Assembly: GCA_024655825.1 (NCBI GenBank)
Contig: JANLFJ010000033.1
Span: 1 to 39,831, forward strand
Origin: Peptococcaceae bacterium
GTDB taxonomy: Bacteria; Bacillota; Peptococcia; DRI-13; PHAD01
Length of the DNA stretch: 39,831 nt
Direction: 5' to 3'
Shown here: positions 5,369 to 34,547 of the stretch, in pieces
How the letters are laid out: every line of letters begins with the position of its first letter
Numbering within the stretch: the first letter of the stretch is position 1
Notes under the pieces: generated by a model
Databases searched by the model: none
Told to the model about the DNA's origin: nothing
The model's input: the letters and a program-made list of their open reading frames with translations, nothing else
Position numbers and translations under genes: made by a program

Positions 5369-5965
5369 ATGACCTTTAAGGAACTATTGAAAACAGTTGT
5401 ATTTGATGATGTTTGGACAGAGCTTGAAAAAGAATATGGTATGAAAAATGAAGCATTTGAAGCATATTTTAAGGTTTTTAATCAACTAAAGGGATTAACA
5501 CCTGAGCCAAATCATGACGGTTTTCGCTTGGTTGTAGCAAGGGTTGAAGACTGGTTAGAACCCGGTACTTTTATGTATGATGTATTTGGAATTAAGCCTG
5601 GCGATAATGATCATTATGCATTAGAGCTATTGCCCTGGAGCGAATTGCTATCCTATGAGGTTGTAGAAAAATGCGTTGAAGCATATAGTGCGGCGGCTGT
5701 TGTGGCACATTCCTTATACGAGGTTACTTTTTTTGGTTATGATGCTACTGATGTCGAGACAAATATTAAAAAGGAAATTGAAATATTAAAGGAACGCCTC
5801 GATGAAATCGAAAATGGAACAGCGGAGCTTGTTTCTTGGGATAAGGTGTGTAAAGATATTGGATATTTTGATGACCGTACAGAGGAAGAGAAAGAGCTGC
5901 AACATAAACAATTTGAACGTATAAACGCTGAAAATAAAAGGGTTTATGAGATGCTGTTATCATAG
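5369..5965 (+). CDS. DUF6557-like small acidic cytoplasmic protein
   Basis: This 198-residue protein has no signal peptide or membrane segment. The start follows a good GGGGTGA ribosome binding site. The pattern MTFKELLKTVVFDDVWTELEKEY at the start (broken here: KELLKTVVFDDVW), the central FDVFGIKPG-like block (MYDVFGIKPGDNDHYALELLPW) and the aromatic FFGYDATDVETNIKKEIE segment remind me of DUF6557, a Firmicutes family of unknown function. The C-terminal third is a charged helix. Base composition is much lower in GC than the neighbours (about 30 percent in bases 5401-5460, counted by hand), pointing to recent acquisition. It stands alone, between an AT-rich spacer and a degraded coding stretch. 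Confidence 0.65.
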   Translation: MTFKELLKTVVFDDVWTELEKEYGMKNEAFEAYFKVFNQLKGLTPEPNHDGFRLVVARVEDWLEPGTFMYDVFGIKPGDNDHYALELLPWSELLSYEVVEKCVEAYSAAAVVAHSLYEVTFFGYDATDVETNIKKEIEILKERLDEIENGTAELVSWDKVCKDIGYFDDRTEEEKELQHKQFERINAENKRVYEMLLS

Positions 5966-29707: not shown

Positions 29708-30391
29708 ATGTTCGAAGGTTTTTCACAAGCAACCATAGATTACCTCAAGGATCTTGCGGCCAACAACAACAAGGAATGGTTCGAAGCACACCGCGCAGAT
29801 TATGAAAAGCACCTGCTGCTGCCGTTTCGGGAACTGGCAGCGGAGCTTGGACCGTTTATGCTGACCATTGACCCCTATTTTGAAAGCAATCCCCGCAAAT
29901 GCGTTTCGCGAATACACAGAGACATAAGATTTTCACGGGACAAAACGCCCTACAGGACAAACATGTGGCTGGCCTTCAAGAGGGTGTATAAGGATTGGAA
30001 GGCCGAACCGACATATTTCTTTGAGGTGTTTCCGGACTACTATCGCTACGGCATGGGGTTTTACGAAATCCCGAAGGAGACGCTGGAAAGATTAAGAGAA
30101 CTGATTCTTAAAAGGGACAAAGGGTTTGAGATGATCAACTCCATTTATAAAAACCAGCGCGAATTTGTTCTGGAAGGTGAAAAATATAAAAGGGTATTGA
30201 ACCCTGAGCTGCCGGATGATCTGCAAGAATGGCACCAGCGAAGGGAGATATACTTCGTCTGCAACAAAAAAGCGGACGAGCGCCTGTTCAGCTCCCGGCT
30301 GGCGGAGGATATTGCCGGCGGGTTCAAGGCATTGGAACCGGCATATAATTTCTTTTTGCAGCTGAGAGGCAAGGCGCTGGCAAGCAACTGA
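29708..30391 (+). CDS. DUF2461 (TIGR02453) family protein
   Basis: The start at 29708 (GGGGG at 29694-29698) is preferred over the upstream TTG and gives 227 residues, the usual length of the family. Characteristic blocks: FSQATIDYLKDLAANNNKEW with FEAHRADYEK, then RIHRDIRFSRDKTPYRTNMW, and the central YYRYGMGFYEIPKETLERLR. The function of the family is unknown; it is cytoplasmic with no signal peptide. It appears monocistronic: the spacers on both sides exceed 200 bases. Confidence 0.88.
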   Translation: MFEGFSQATIDYLKDLAANNNKEWFEAHRADYEKHLLLPFRELAAELGPFMLTIDPYFESNPRKCVSRIHRDIRFSRDKTPYRTNMWLAFKRVYKDWKAEPTYFFEVFPDYYRYGMGFYEIPKETLERLRELILKRDKGFEMINSIYKNQREFVLEGEKYKRVLNPELPDDLQEWHQRREIYFVCNKKADERLFSSRLAEDIAGGFKALEPAYNFFLQLRGKALASN

Positions 30392-30486
30392 CGGCCGCCG
30401 GCGCGACTCCTCGGCTCGATAGCCGCAAAGAGCTAAAATGCCGCCAAAGCGAAAAAAAGCCCGTGGATTTTTGGGGTCCGCTGGTG

Positions 30487-30492
30487 TATAAT
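30487..30492 (+). promoter_or_regulatory. Putative -10 box for the fmdE/ABC operon
   Basis: A perfect TATAAT follows GGTG. The hexamer 17 bases upstream (TGGATT, 30464-30469) is a weak -35. Transcription would start near 30499, just ahead of the first hairpin of the leader. Confidence 0.45.
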
Positions 30493-30504: not shown

Positions 30505-30629
30505 GCGAACTAAGAAAGTTCGCGGGACGTTGGATCTAATAAAAGATTAAGCGACAAAATGACGGTTAGCCATGAAGGTTGAACGGACCGCAGGAGCGGT
30601 CGGTACAGCTTAAATGGCTATATTTTTTT
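30505..30629 (+). promoter_or_regulatory. Structured leader with terminator-like second stem (possible riboswitch or attenuator)
   Basis: The first hairpin is GCGAACT (30505-30511) with AGTTCGC (30517-30523). After a 43-base linker comes a long branched stem: TAGCCAT (30567-30573) pairs with ATGGCTA (30614-30620), enclosing a strong hairpin GACCGC/GCGGTC (30586-30591, 30596-30601). A seven-T run (30623-30629) follows directly, then the ribosome binding site. An intrinsic-terminator shape this close to the start codon suggests transcription attenuation. Because the operon encodes an FmdE-like protein and a metal-type importer, a molybdate/tungstate- or cofactor-sensing RNA is a guess; I cannot match a known consensus. 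Confidence 0.5.
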
Positions 30630-30646
30630 GAAGGGGGAAGGGGATA

Positions 30647-31223: not shown

Positions 31224-32301
31224 GTGAAAAACGAATTGTACGTCTCAGGAGAACCGTGCCGGATAGATGTTTACCAGCAGTATACCGGGAGAAAAAGAAC
31301 CGTTATATTTCTTCTGGTCCTGTTGAACGTAGTATTGGCGGTGCTTGCCATTCAAGCCGGGTCCGCCAACCTGACTCCCTACCAGGTTCTAATGGCTGTT
31401 CTTGGCCGTGGGAGCGGCATTGGTTATTTGGAATATCCGCTTGCCCAGGGTTCTGGCAGGGATTATTGCCGGCGCCGGGTTGTCGGCAGCCGGCTGCGTG
31501 ATGCAGAACAACCTTAAAAACCCCCTGGCTTCCCCTTTCACTTTAGGCATATCCAATGCCGCGGCCTTCGGAGCAAATATTGCCATTATTGGTTTCGGAG
31601 CCGGCAGCATCCAGAGCACGAGCACTGATGCGGTAATCATCAACAATCCTTACCTGGTAACGATATCGGCCTTTGCCTGGTCGATGGCGGCTGCCCTGAC
31701 CATCCTCCTGCTGGCCAGGTTCCGCGGGTTTTCCCCGGAATCAATGATCCTGGCCGGCGTAGCAATCGGTTCGCTCTTTTCGGCCGCGACCATCCTGATC
31801 CAGTATTTTGCTCAGGATATGCAAATAGCAGCCGTGGTTTTTTGGACCTTCGGCGACTTGGGTAGGGCTTCCTGGAAGGAAGTAATCATCATGGCCGTTG
31901 CGGTTGGCCTGGCGGTTATTTATTTCATGCTCAAAAGGTGGGACTACAATGCCCTGGGCAGCGGGGAGGAGACCGCCAAAGGGTTGGGCGTCAACGTGGA
32001 GCGGGTGCGCCTGGGAGGCATGTTTGTCTCCTCCCTGATCACCGCCGTTGCGGTGTCCTTTCTGGGGATTATCGGTTTCATTGGCCTTGTCGGTCCCCAG
32101 ATTATGAGGAGAATAATCGGCGGGGATCACCGTTTTCTTGTTCCGGCTTCGGTGTTGATGGGGTCGTTGCTGCTCCTGGTTTCCGATACCGTGGCCCGGA
32201 CAATTATTTCACCAGTGGTCTTGCCGGTTGGAGCAATCACTTCCTTCCTGGGAGCGCCGCTGTTCCTTTACCTGTTGGCAAGGGGGTATCAGCAGAGATG
32301 A
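31224..32301 (+). pseudogene. FecCD/BtuC-type permease gene with a frameshift
   Basis: The gene is read in two frames. From GTG 31224 the first frame encodes the N-terminal tail and first membrane helix (VIFLLVLLNVVLAVLAIQAG, LTPYQVLMAVLGRGSGIG). Around 31422-31428 the coherent family sequence jumps to the next frame, which continues VIWNIRLPRVLAGIIAGAGL, NPLASPFTLGISNAAAFGA and on to the end at 32301. The two parts join exactly where FecCD proteins read GRG-x-GI-x-VIWNIRLPR. The 3' frame alone (from TTG 31402) would lack the first helix. Everything else is intact and the downstream ATPase overlaps by ATGA, so this could be a sequencing error, a recent mutation or programmed frameshifting. 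Confidence 0.8.
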
Positions 32302-33050
32302 TCCTTTCCGTTAATGGCTTGAAGTTCAGGTATCCGGGGCGTTCCGTGTTTCAGGACATTGATTTTTCCGTGACGAAAGGCGAATGCCTTGCCGTTTTGG
32401 GTACAAACGGGGTTGGGAAGTCCACTTTGCTTAAGTGCCTTAACCGTATTTTGAAACCGCAGTCGGGTGTCGTGTATATCTGTGAAAATGAGGTCTTGAA
32501 ACTAAGCAGGATGGAACTGGCCCGGAGAATGGGGTATGTACCTCAGAGGCACGAGTGCGCCAGGACCACTGTTTTTGACGCGGTGCTGCTGGGCAGGAGG
32601 CCGTATATTAAATGGGATGTCTGCCCAAAGGACCTGGAAATCACGAACCGCGTTCTGCAGCTGCTGGAACTGGAAGATTATTCTCTGAGGCACCTGGATG
32701 AATTAAGCGGCGGGGAATTGCAGAAAGTGGTGCTTGCTCGGGCACTGGCCCAGGAACCGGAGGTGCTTTTGCTCGACGAACCGACCAGCAACCTGGACCT
32801 GAAAAACCAGCTCGAAGTGATCGGCATTATCAAAAGGGTGGTTAAAAGCCAGCAGATAGCCGCCATTGTGACCATGCACGACCTTAACCTTGCTCTCCGC
32901 TTTGCCGACAAGTTCCTGCTTCTTAAAAAGGGGAACATTTATGCGGCTGGCGGAATCGAGGTGATGACCCCGGAGAATATAGAGAGCGTTTATTCTGTTC
33001 CGGTAACGATCGAAAAATACCGGGATGTCCCGGTGGTTGTTCCCCTGTAA
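32298..33050 (+). CDS. ABC transporter ATPase, FepC/BtuD type
   Basis: The ATG at 32298 overlaps the permease stop. The 250-residue product carries Walker A GTNGVGKST (35-43), the signature LSGGELQKVVLARAL (about 136) and Walker B VLLLDEPTSNLD (about 156-167), followed by the His switch (TMHDLNLAL). It energises uptake of a metal chelate, siderophore or oxyanion by the neighbouring permease. The position after the permease and before the binding protein is standard for this transporter class. Confidence 0.93.
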   Translation: MILSVNGLKFRYPGRSVFQDIDFSVTKGECLAVLGTNGVGKSTLLKCLNRILKPQSGVVYICENEVLKLSRMELARRMGYVPQRHECARTTVFDAVLLGRRPYIKWDVCPKDLEITNRVLQLLELEDYSLRHLDELSGGELQKVVLARALAQEPEVLLLDEPTSNLDLKNQLEVIGIIKRVVKSQQIAAIVTMHDLNLALRFADKFLLLKKGNIYAAGGIEVMTPENIESVYSVPVTIEKYRDVPVVVPL

Positions 33051-33140: not shown

Positions 33141-34247
33141 ATGCGTGGAAGAAGCGCCTGTTTATTATTGGCAGCCCTGCTGCTGGCATCCTTTGTCCTC
33201 GGCGGCTGCGGCTCCCAAACCGCCCAAAAAGCCGCTGGCGGGTCAAAAACAACAGTAACGGACATGCTTGGAAGGCAGGTTTCGCTGGCCGTCCCGGCGG
33301 AACGCGTGGTGGCCATCGGCCCTGGAGCGCTCAGGCTGTATTGCTATGTCAACGGTGTGAACAAGGTGGTGGGGGTGGAGCAGATTGAAAAGGATAATCC
33401 CACCGGGAGGCCGTACCTTCTCGCCAACCCTTCACTGACGAACCTCCCAGTTATTGGACCGGGCGGCCCCAACAACGCTCCCGATCCGGAGAAGATACTT
33501 GCCGTCAAGCCTGACGTAATATTTACCGCCTACAACTCGGATAAGGCCGCTGTTGAGGAACTGCAGGCCAAAACCGGCGTGCCCGTGGTAGCCCTGAGCT
33601 ACGGGAAAGTATCTACCTTTGATCTCGCCGTTTACAGTTCGCTGAAGCTTATCGGCAAAATTGTAGGCCAGGAAAAGAAGGCCCAGGATTTGGTTGATTT
33701 TATGGAGAAATGCAAGCAGGACCTGGCTAAACGCACCAAAAATATTCCCGATAACAAGAAGCCGAGCGTGTATGTAGGCGCTTTAGGGGCTCGGGGGACA
33801 CACGGCATCGAGAGCACACAAGGCAAGTATTCTTTGTTTGAGGCGATAAACGCCAGGAATGTAGTGGATGAAACCGGCAAAACCGGTTCTTTGATGATTG
33901 AAAAGGAAAAACTGCTCCAGTGGAACCCCGATATAATTTTTATCGATCTGGCCGGTTACCCGATGGTCCAGCAGGACTATCAGAAAAACCCGCAGTTTTA
34001 CAAAGCATTGTCGGCAGTGAAGAAGGGCGAACTATATTCCCAGCTGCCGTACAATTACTACACCACGAATATTGGTACCGCTGTAGCCGATGCCTATTAC
34101 CTGGGGAAAGTGATTTATCCCGAGCAATTTAAAGATGTTGAGCCGGAGAAAAAGGCCGATGAGATTTATCAAGCCCTGCTCGGCAAACAGCTTTACGCGC
34201 AAATGGCCAAGGACTTTGGGGGGTTTAAAAAGTTGACCCTGCCTTAA
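33141..34247 (+). CDS. Metal-chelate-type ABC transporter substrate-binding lipoprotein
   Basis: This 368-residue lipoprotein has the signal CLLLAALLLASFVLGGCGS, with LGGC as lipobox. The mature part is a periplasmic-binding-protein fold of the FepB/BtuF class (PF01497): VTDMLGRQVSLAVPAERVVA, DPEKILAVKPDVIFT, and a long central helix. It contains the IGPGALRLYCYVNGVNKVVGVE block that I associate with the subgroup found near FmdE genes rather than with classical ferric-siderophore binders. A GAGGAGG site precedes the ATG. The ligand is not known; molybdate/tungstate or an iron chelate are candidates. Confidence 0.9.
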   Translation: MRGRSACLLLAALLLASFVLGGCGSQTAQKAAGGSKTTVTDMLGRQVSLAVPAERVVAIGPGALRLYCYVNGVNKVVGVEQIEKDNPTGRPYLLANPSLTNLPVIGPGGPNNAPDPEKILAVKPDVIFTAYNSDKAAVEELQAKTGVPVVALSYGKVSTFDLAVYSSLKLIGKIVGQEKKAQDLVDFMEKCKQDLAKRTKNIPDNKKPSVYVGALGARGTHGIESTQGKYSLFEAINARNVVDETGKTGSLMIEKEKLLQWNPDIIFIDLAGYPMVQQDYQKNPQFYKALSAVKKGELYSQLPYNYYTTNIGTAVADAYYLGKVIYPEQFKDVEPEKKADEIYQALLGKQLYAQMAKDFGGFKKLTLP

Positions 34248-34351: not shown

Positions 34352-34373
34352 TTATAAGAAACAAGTTCATATT

Positions 34374-34501
34374 TCCTTCGGGAACAGGTGGAATTCCATA
34401 CCGGCGGTAATCCGCACCGAAAAGTGCGGCAGCCCGCGAGCCTTAAGGCAGACTCTGGTGAGATCCCGGGGCCGACAGTTAAAGTCTGGATGGGAGAAGG
34501 A
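34374..34501 (+). promoter_or_regulatory. FMN riboswitch (RFN element)
   Basis: All conserved blocks of the RFN element are in order: the closing stem TCCTTC (34374-34379) with GAAGGA (34496-34501), then GGAATTCCATACCGGCGGTA, AGCCCGCGAGC, GGTGAGATCCCGGGGCCGAC, and AGTTAAAGTCTGGATGGGAG. It senses flavin mononucleotide and controls transcription of the riboflavin genes that follow, by way of the terminator at 34548. Confidence 0.97.
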
Positions 34502-34547
34502 TTGAAATGGCCGCATAAAAGGTGCTTTTTCTCGCGTGCCGGATTGT

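Follow-up and report, generated by a model that had tools for sequence, protein, structure and literature searches.

A conserved tandem-hairpin leader of an fmdE operon as a candidate transcription attenuator of nickel/cobalt genes in Bacillota

Paired RNA hairpins are recognized by several types of bacterial regulators. CsrA/RsmE proteins recognize two hairpin loops that are bridged by one dimer and whose spacing is flexible. The targets of the ANTAR-domain antiterminators consist of two tandem hexaloop hairpins, both with A as the first and G as the fourth nucleotide of the loop; the linker of the eut targets spans 5-12 nt, and its extension by 20 nt abolishes the action of EutV (PMC3369931, PMC8934654). 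Leader RNAs are also tied to nickel/cobalt or B12 genes in the form of the NiCo and cobalamin riboswitches, and the Moco/Tuco motif is found in leaders of metal-transport and cofactor genes. At the DNA level, nickel supply (nikABCDE, nikMNQO, nickel enzymes) is the domain of the repressor NikR, a protein that a published survey found in less than half of the organisms with NikABCDE, from which NikR-independent regulation was inferred (PMC2667541).

In the window analyzed here, a stretch of 39,831 nucleotides from a Peptococcaceae bacterium, a leader of comparable design precedes an operon for an FmdE homologue and a FecCD-type ABC transporter (Table 1). Like the ANTAR (EutV/NasR/AmiR) elements, it contains tandem like-looped hairpins (P1 and P2), the second of which overlaps the 5' arm of a terminator, and several copies per genome precede operons that they would control. 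Unlike them, it carries ANGAA pentaloops (in P1 also NGRA tetraloops) instead of A1/G4 hexaloops, is not restricted to short linkers, is connected with nickel/cobalt instead of nitrogen genes, and also occurs in genomes without an ANTAR protein (PF03861). It shares two hairpin loops at flexible spacing with the CsrA/RsmE sites, but its loops are mostly GAA and not GGA. As a mechanism, the element is a variant of dual-hairpin antitermination, while as an RNA family it appears to be new.

The preliminary description had considered the leader to be new or poorly known, and a search of Rfam 15 agrees with this view: no family, the NiCo, Moco and cobalamin families included, describes the leader at or above its gathering score. 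At a permissive threshold (E = 10) the window leader had no match, and a single chance match fell outside of it; eleven related loci yielded nothing relevant at the strict threshold, and a copy at one related locus (L004) yielded only chance-level sRNA and miRNA matches in a permissive search. In contrast to the NiCo and cobalamin riboswitches, for which the window and the leaders searched gave no covariance-model match, the element has no multi-helix junction. Our survey of open-access papers found no nickel attenuator, FmdE riboswitch or tandem-hairpin nickel element, although other papers may describe one. The window leader belongs to a conserved leader family that has apparently not been described.

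Table 1. Features of the fmdE leader and operon in the window.
Feature	Position (strand)	Details	Basis
Sigma-A type promoter	30464..30492 (+)	-35 TGGATT 30464-30469, 17-bp spacer, -10 TATAAT 30487-30492	
P1 hairpin	30505..30523 (+)	GCGAACT-[AAGAA]-AGTTCGC, 7 bp	Fold
Linker hairpin between P1 and P2	30528..30553 (+)	CGTT.GATCT/AGATT.AGCG	Fold
P2 antiterminator hairpin	30566..30582 (+)	TTAGCC-[ATGAA]-GGTTGA	Nascent-RNA fold, pair conservation, covariation
Intrinsic terminator	30567..30629 (+)	TAGCCAT...ATGGCTA 30567-30620 + T7 30623-30629	Fold, covariation
Ribosome binding site region	30630..30646 (+)	GAAGGGGGAAGGGGATA, directly 3' of the T run	Sequence
fmdE homologue, 176 aa	30647..31177 (+)	PF02663 core and C-terminal zf-dskA_traR zinc finger	Pfam, E 9.5e-38 (core), E 4.1e-12 (zinc finger)
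FecCD/BtuC-type ABC permease	31224..32301 (+)	Two overlapping frames, 31224-31517 and 31402-32301	
ABC transporter ATPase, FecE/BtuD type	32292..33050 (+)	PF00005	Pfam, E 1.5e-30
Substrate-binding lipoprotein, Peripla_BP_2 (FecB/BtuF type)	33141..34247 (+)	PF01497	Pfam, E 4.8e-24

All sequence features named in the preliminary description (TATAAT, the 7-bp hairpin, TAGCCAT/ATGGCTA around GACCGC/GCGGTC, the run of seven T residues and the ribosome binding site) were recovered. The promoter is the best match in a sequence scan, with a weak -35 region, and is positioned 12 nt 5' of P1; the transcript probably begins with P1 or a short distance before it. The 130-nt leader, taken from the position where transcription probably begins up to the T run, has a folding energy of -50.9 kcal/mol, compared with -26.4 +/- 3.1 for dinucleotide shuffles (z -7.8; none of 200 shuffles was as stable). 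Its terminator-like stem is borne out (z -6.1 for the terminator hairpin alone), but the structure is a single long hairpin interrupted by small internal loops rather than a branched stem; in this hairpin, TAGCCAT (30567-30573) pairs with ATGGCTA (30614-30620). The ribosome binding site is of the GGGGGAAGGGG type and the start codon of fmdE is ATG. The hairpin located in the linker is not kept in relatives of the leader.

The key feature overlooked in the preliminary description is that the 5' arm of the terminator can also form P2, a hairpin looped like P1; the loops of the two (AAGAA and ATGAA) fit a single motif, ANGAA. Because P2 uses the 5' arm of the terminator, the two structures are mutually exclusive. 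The leader thereby has two attributes of a transcription attenuator: a terminator between the promoter and the first gene, and a conserved alternative fold that excludes it. When folding of the nascent RNA was followed, P2 was the minimum-energy form at 3' ends 30585, 30600, 30605 and 30608, a competitor that keeps only the inner P2 pairs was the best fold at 30595, and the terminator took over from 30612 to 30620. The full-length leader folds at -40.8 kcal/mol with P2 forced and at -50.9 with the terminator; hence, about 10 kcal/mol must be paid to keep P2, or the action must take place during transcription.

Two observations on the surroundings of the leader may be added. The frame of the FecCD permease is broken near 31400-31420 (its part at 31402-32301 matches PF01032 with an E value of 1.7e-83), while the homologue at L004 is intact with 361 aa; the split might reflect a frameshift or pseudogene, or a sequencing or assembly error. 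Downstream of the operon, a canonical FMN riboswitch (RF00050, 92.9 bits; 34370-34505, plus strand) precedes a riboflavin operon of the ribD type.

Homologous operons were reached via the FmdE protein, and their leaders carry the pattern CCAYGAAGG...YRTGG followed by a T run. Among 16 relatives, both alternative helices covary, as the preliminary description had proposed to check on the leaders of related fmdE operons: the terminator helix is paired in 92.6% of cells and attains a covariation score of 0.298, and P2 attains 0.330, values reached by 0 of 500 shuffles in either case, counts that are not probabilities as the sequences are akin. Slid controls, which retain this relatedness, also score well below the real covariation. 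The proposal that a metal-uptake operon is attenuated through its leader, which is conserved, is thus supported.

A covariance model (R1) built on the element found it at E <= 0.01 in 117 of the 398 genomes sampled from the phylum (about 29%), many of them with clustered copies. Since terminator palindromes score on both strands, some of the weak matches may be ordinary terminators, and the best-scoring regions were therefore fetched for close reading. Leaders were chosen there by the pattern CCANGAAGG, followed downstream by a terminator arm that matches it and by a T run, which left 84 after antisense and overlapping duplicates had been dropped; this selection included the loop type and the innermost pairs, but neither the outer P2 pairs nor P1. 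All 84 leaders have the ANGAA pentaloop in P2, a loop type that was selected for. Pair 3 of P2 is formed in 82 of them (98%) and pair 4 in 72 (86%), while P2-type outer pairs are formed at 43% of 216 other CCNNGAAGG sites; none of 2000 shuffles reached the level of the leaders. A strong P1 hairpin with the loop (N)NGRA lies upstream of P2 in 55 of the 84, compared with 2.5 on average and at most 6 when the leaders were shuffled, and at a stricter energy cut in 41 versus 0.5. In about a third of the leaders, the larE leader of the window's own genome included, P1 was not found by these search criteria. The P1-P2 linker measures 7-107 nt, with only four cases below 27 nt, and has no common sequence. 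Many of the related leaders have a sigma-A type promoter directly 5' of P1, as in the window.

The genome from which the window derives contains two further P2-terminator leaders, one before larE(BC) (L115; contig C11, ~76237-76289) and one before a cbiM/nikM gene (L114; contig C2, ~85087-85145). A DNA similarity search with the leader within the same family returned only the window itself and chance matches. Many copies elsewhere are clustered (L094-L096 in G344, L097-L099 in G162, L100-L101 in G071, L103 in G361) among fmdE-like, nikABC-like, cobN-like, DUF3842 and methyltransferase genes, and these clusters look like metallophore or corrinoid-metal clusters. At L009 (~5870-5960; Acetivibrio), both hairpins have the AAGAA loop, and the overlap between the terminator and P2 is confined to the 3' part of the latter; this is an alternative wiring of the same element.

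The genes behind the element were read from the loci, and representatives were checked with Pfam and NCBIfam. They are genes connected with nickel or cobalt: fmdE with a FecCD ABC transporter, cbiMNQO, nikABC, larE, cooS-cooC, cobN and hydrogenases. The representatives comprise CbiM/PDGLE proteins, LarE (TIGR00268, 315 bits) together with LarC in one operon of the window's own genome, and, behind a cbiM-type gene, the catalytic subunit of an anaerobic CO dehydrogenase (TIGR01702, 694 bits) accompanied by a CooC-like ATPase. Also found were a NikA-like SBP_bac_5 lipoprotein, DUF4198, a component of an ECF transporter, CobN, an FeFe hydrogenase and DUF3842 (PF12953); NicO was a name given by eye, for which neither Pfam nor NCBIfam gave a match. 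When a strict list is applied, a nickel/cobalt-type gene lies within 3.5 kb of 61 of the 84 leaders, compared with 81 of 263 gene starts (31%) that lie on the same fetched stretches but >6 kb away from every site, a control that is inflated because the stretches consist of nickel clusters themselves. Hydrogenase or other genes follow some of the leaders, and a role in nickel metabolism is not proven for the FmdE, FecCD, SAM methyltransferase and DUF3842 families. The solved FmdE-family protein B8FYU2_DESHY has a mixed zinc/nickel site, and genes of this family mostly adjoin those of metal-ion transporters; the nickel is weak evidence because a nickel resin was used in that work (PMC2954224).

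The relation to Moco/Tuco and to molybdenum or tungsten raised in the preliminary description is not supported: the leader has no Rfam match of this kind, its relatives precede nickel/cobalt genes, and no supporting Mo/W gene was seen in the leaders read. The same attenuator might respond to a corrinoid, a general shortage of metals, or a redox/hydrogen signal, given that cobN-like, FeFe-hydrogenase and FecCD/BtuC-type genes stand behind some copies. We consider this unlikely, since larE, CO dehydrogenase with cooC, cbiM/nikM and nikABC-type genes have nickel as their simplest common denominator.

With a probability of roughly 0.68, we read the leader as a transcription attenuator of a nickel (nickel/cobalt) regulon in which a putative trans-acting factor holds P2 when the metal is scarce, a reading derived from sequence comparison. 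RNA polymerase would start just 5' of P1 and would produce P1 and subsequently P2. Left unstabilized, P2 would yield within about 30-40 nt to pairing with the terminator's 3' arm, and the polymerase would then stop at the T run before fmdE. Under metal scarcity, the putative factor, most likely an RNA-binding protein and perhaps a dimer, would recognize the ANGAA loops and bind P1 and P2, and with P2 held during transcription, the polymerase would read into fmdE and the genes of the FecCD-type ABC transporter. The duplicated loop, the variable distance between its copies and the competition of one hairpin with the terminator together suggest a factor that acts in trans, binds RNA and is probably dimeric. 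We infer that this factor is a protein, that it contacts both hairpins and that nickel is its signal; the direction of the response, with the genes turned on by nickel shortage, is suggested by the uptake genes lying downstream.

The preliminary description had envisioned attenuation controlled by a ligand. The attenuation part of this claim is supported, but a riboswitch in the strict sense is doubtful. In such a scenario, P1, the linker and P2 would together create a pocket for the direct binding of Ni2+, Co2+ or a nickel/corrinoid cofactor, and no protein would be needed; the very stable leader, the control via a terminator and the coherent metal regulon would fit, as would the fact that none of the candidate proteins follows the distribution of the element across the tested genomes. 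However, conservation is limited to a 4-5-nt loop, present twice, and the pairs that close it, the linker varies widely without a common sequence, and the NiCo and cobalamin families of Rfam do not match. A small loop motif that occurs twice, with an unconserved linker in between, looks like the site of a trans-acting dimeric protein rather than an aptamer, and direct ligand sensing, judged from the sequences at hand, is in our view the less likely of the two and rather improbable.

In the search for the trans-acting factor, ANTAR proteins suggested themselves, given that the RNAs they target share the dual-hairpin layout, with P2 inside the terminator (PMC3369931, PMC8934654), and an ANTAR gene is present in 29 of the 30 element-bearing genomes first tested. 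Yet such a gene is missing from seven element-bearing genomes (G177, G299, G342, G382, G147, G151 and G097), of which G299, G342 and G151 are single-contig genomes, and ANTAR was rejected as the common regulator. The ANTAR genes inspected lie mostly beside genes of the glutamine synthetase or glutamate synthase type, i.e., those of nitrogen metabolism. Instead of the expected hexaloops with A1 and G4, the leaders form the next pair of the hexaloop register in just 2% of the 84 cases, and linkers reach 107 nt, a length difficult to reconcile with the effect of 20 additional nt on EutV. A divergent ANTAR target is therefore largely refuted already and very improbable. A terminator that is simply constitutive and shields fmdE from the DUF2461 gene before it, with likenesses elsewhere due to chance, would make sense for a same-strand gene ending at 30391 but is just as hard to defend, since the promoter lies between that gene and the terminator and thus places the latter inside the leader, P1 and P2 are conserved apart from the terminator, and the element recurs before related genes in many genomes.

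Further candidates for the factor proposed to hold P2 were rejected as common regulators by their absence from element-bearing single-contig genomes: CsoR (missing from G301), DUF3842 (G182), FmdE (G342 and G151) and CsrA (G301 and G391). A gene-cluster analysis of the fetched neighborhoods revealed no candidate regulator gene. At one locus (L087, 7757-8059, minus strand), a copy of the element is directly followed by a gene of the CsoR/RcnR family whose product has a His-rich start.

NikR has the same kind of targets as the genes found here, but it acts on DNA, and a convincing NikR_C domain was present in only one of the 42 element-bearing genomes tested (G151), with marginal matches in two more. 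NikR being nearly always absent, it offers no explanation at the DNA level. The element-free genomes tested mostly lack NikR too; the usual repressor is thus absent, and its replacement by the element is not proven. We hold at about even odds the wider proposal that the element stands for nickel-responsive antitermination of an undescribed class, with a putative RNA-binding regulator that recognizes paired ANGAA-loop hairpins and, in many Bacillota, runs the nickel regulon in place of NikR.

The conserved leader bears on the control of nickel supply in anaerobic Bacillota without NikR, many of which carry genes for Ni-CODH, hydrogenase, LarE or Ni-ABC systems. It provides a definition of the regulon and a bait RNA for the regulator, and the leader common to these genes gives functional leads for FmdE, DUF3842, DUF4198 and ECF components. 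If the proposed mechanism is true, the dual-hairpin antitermination design of the ANTAR type would be used by a second, unrelated factor.
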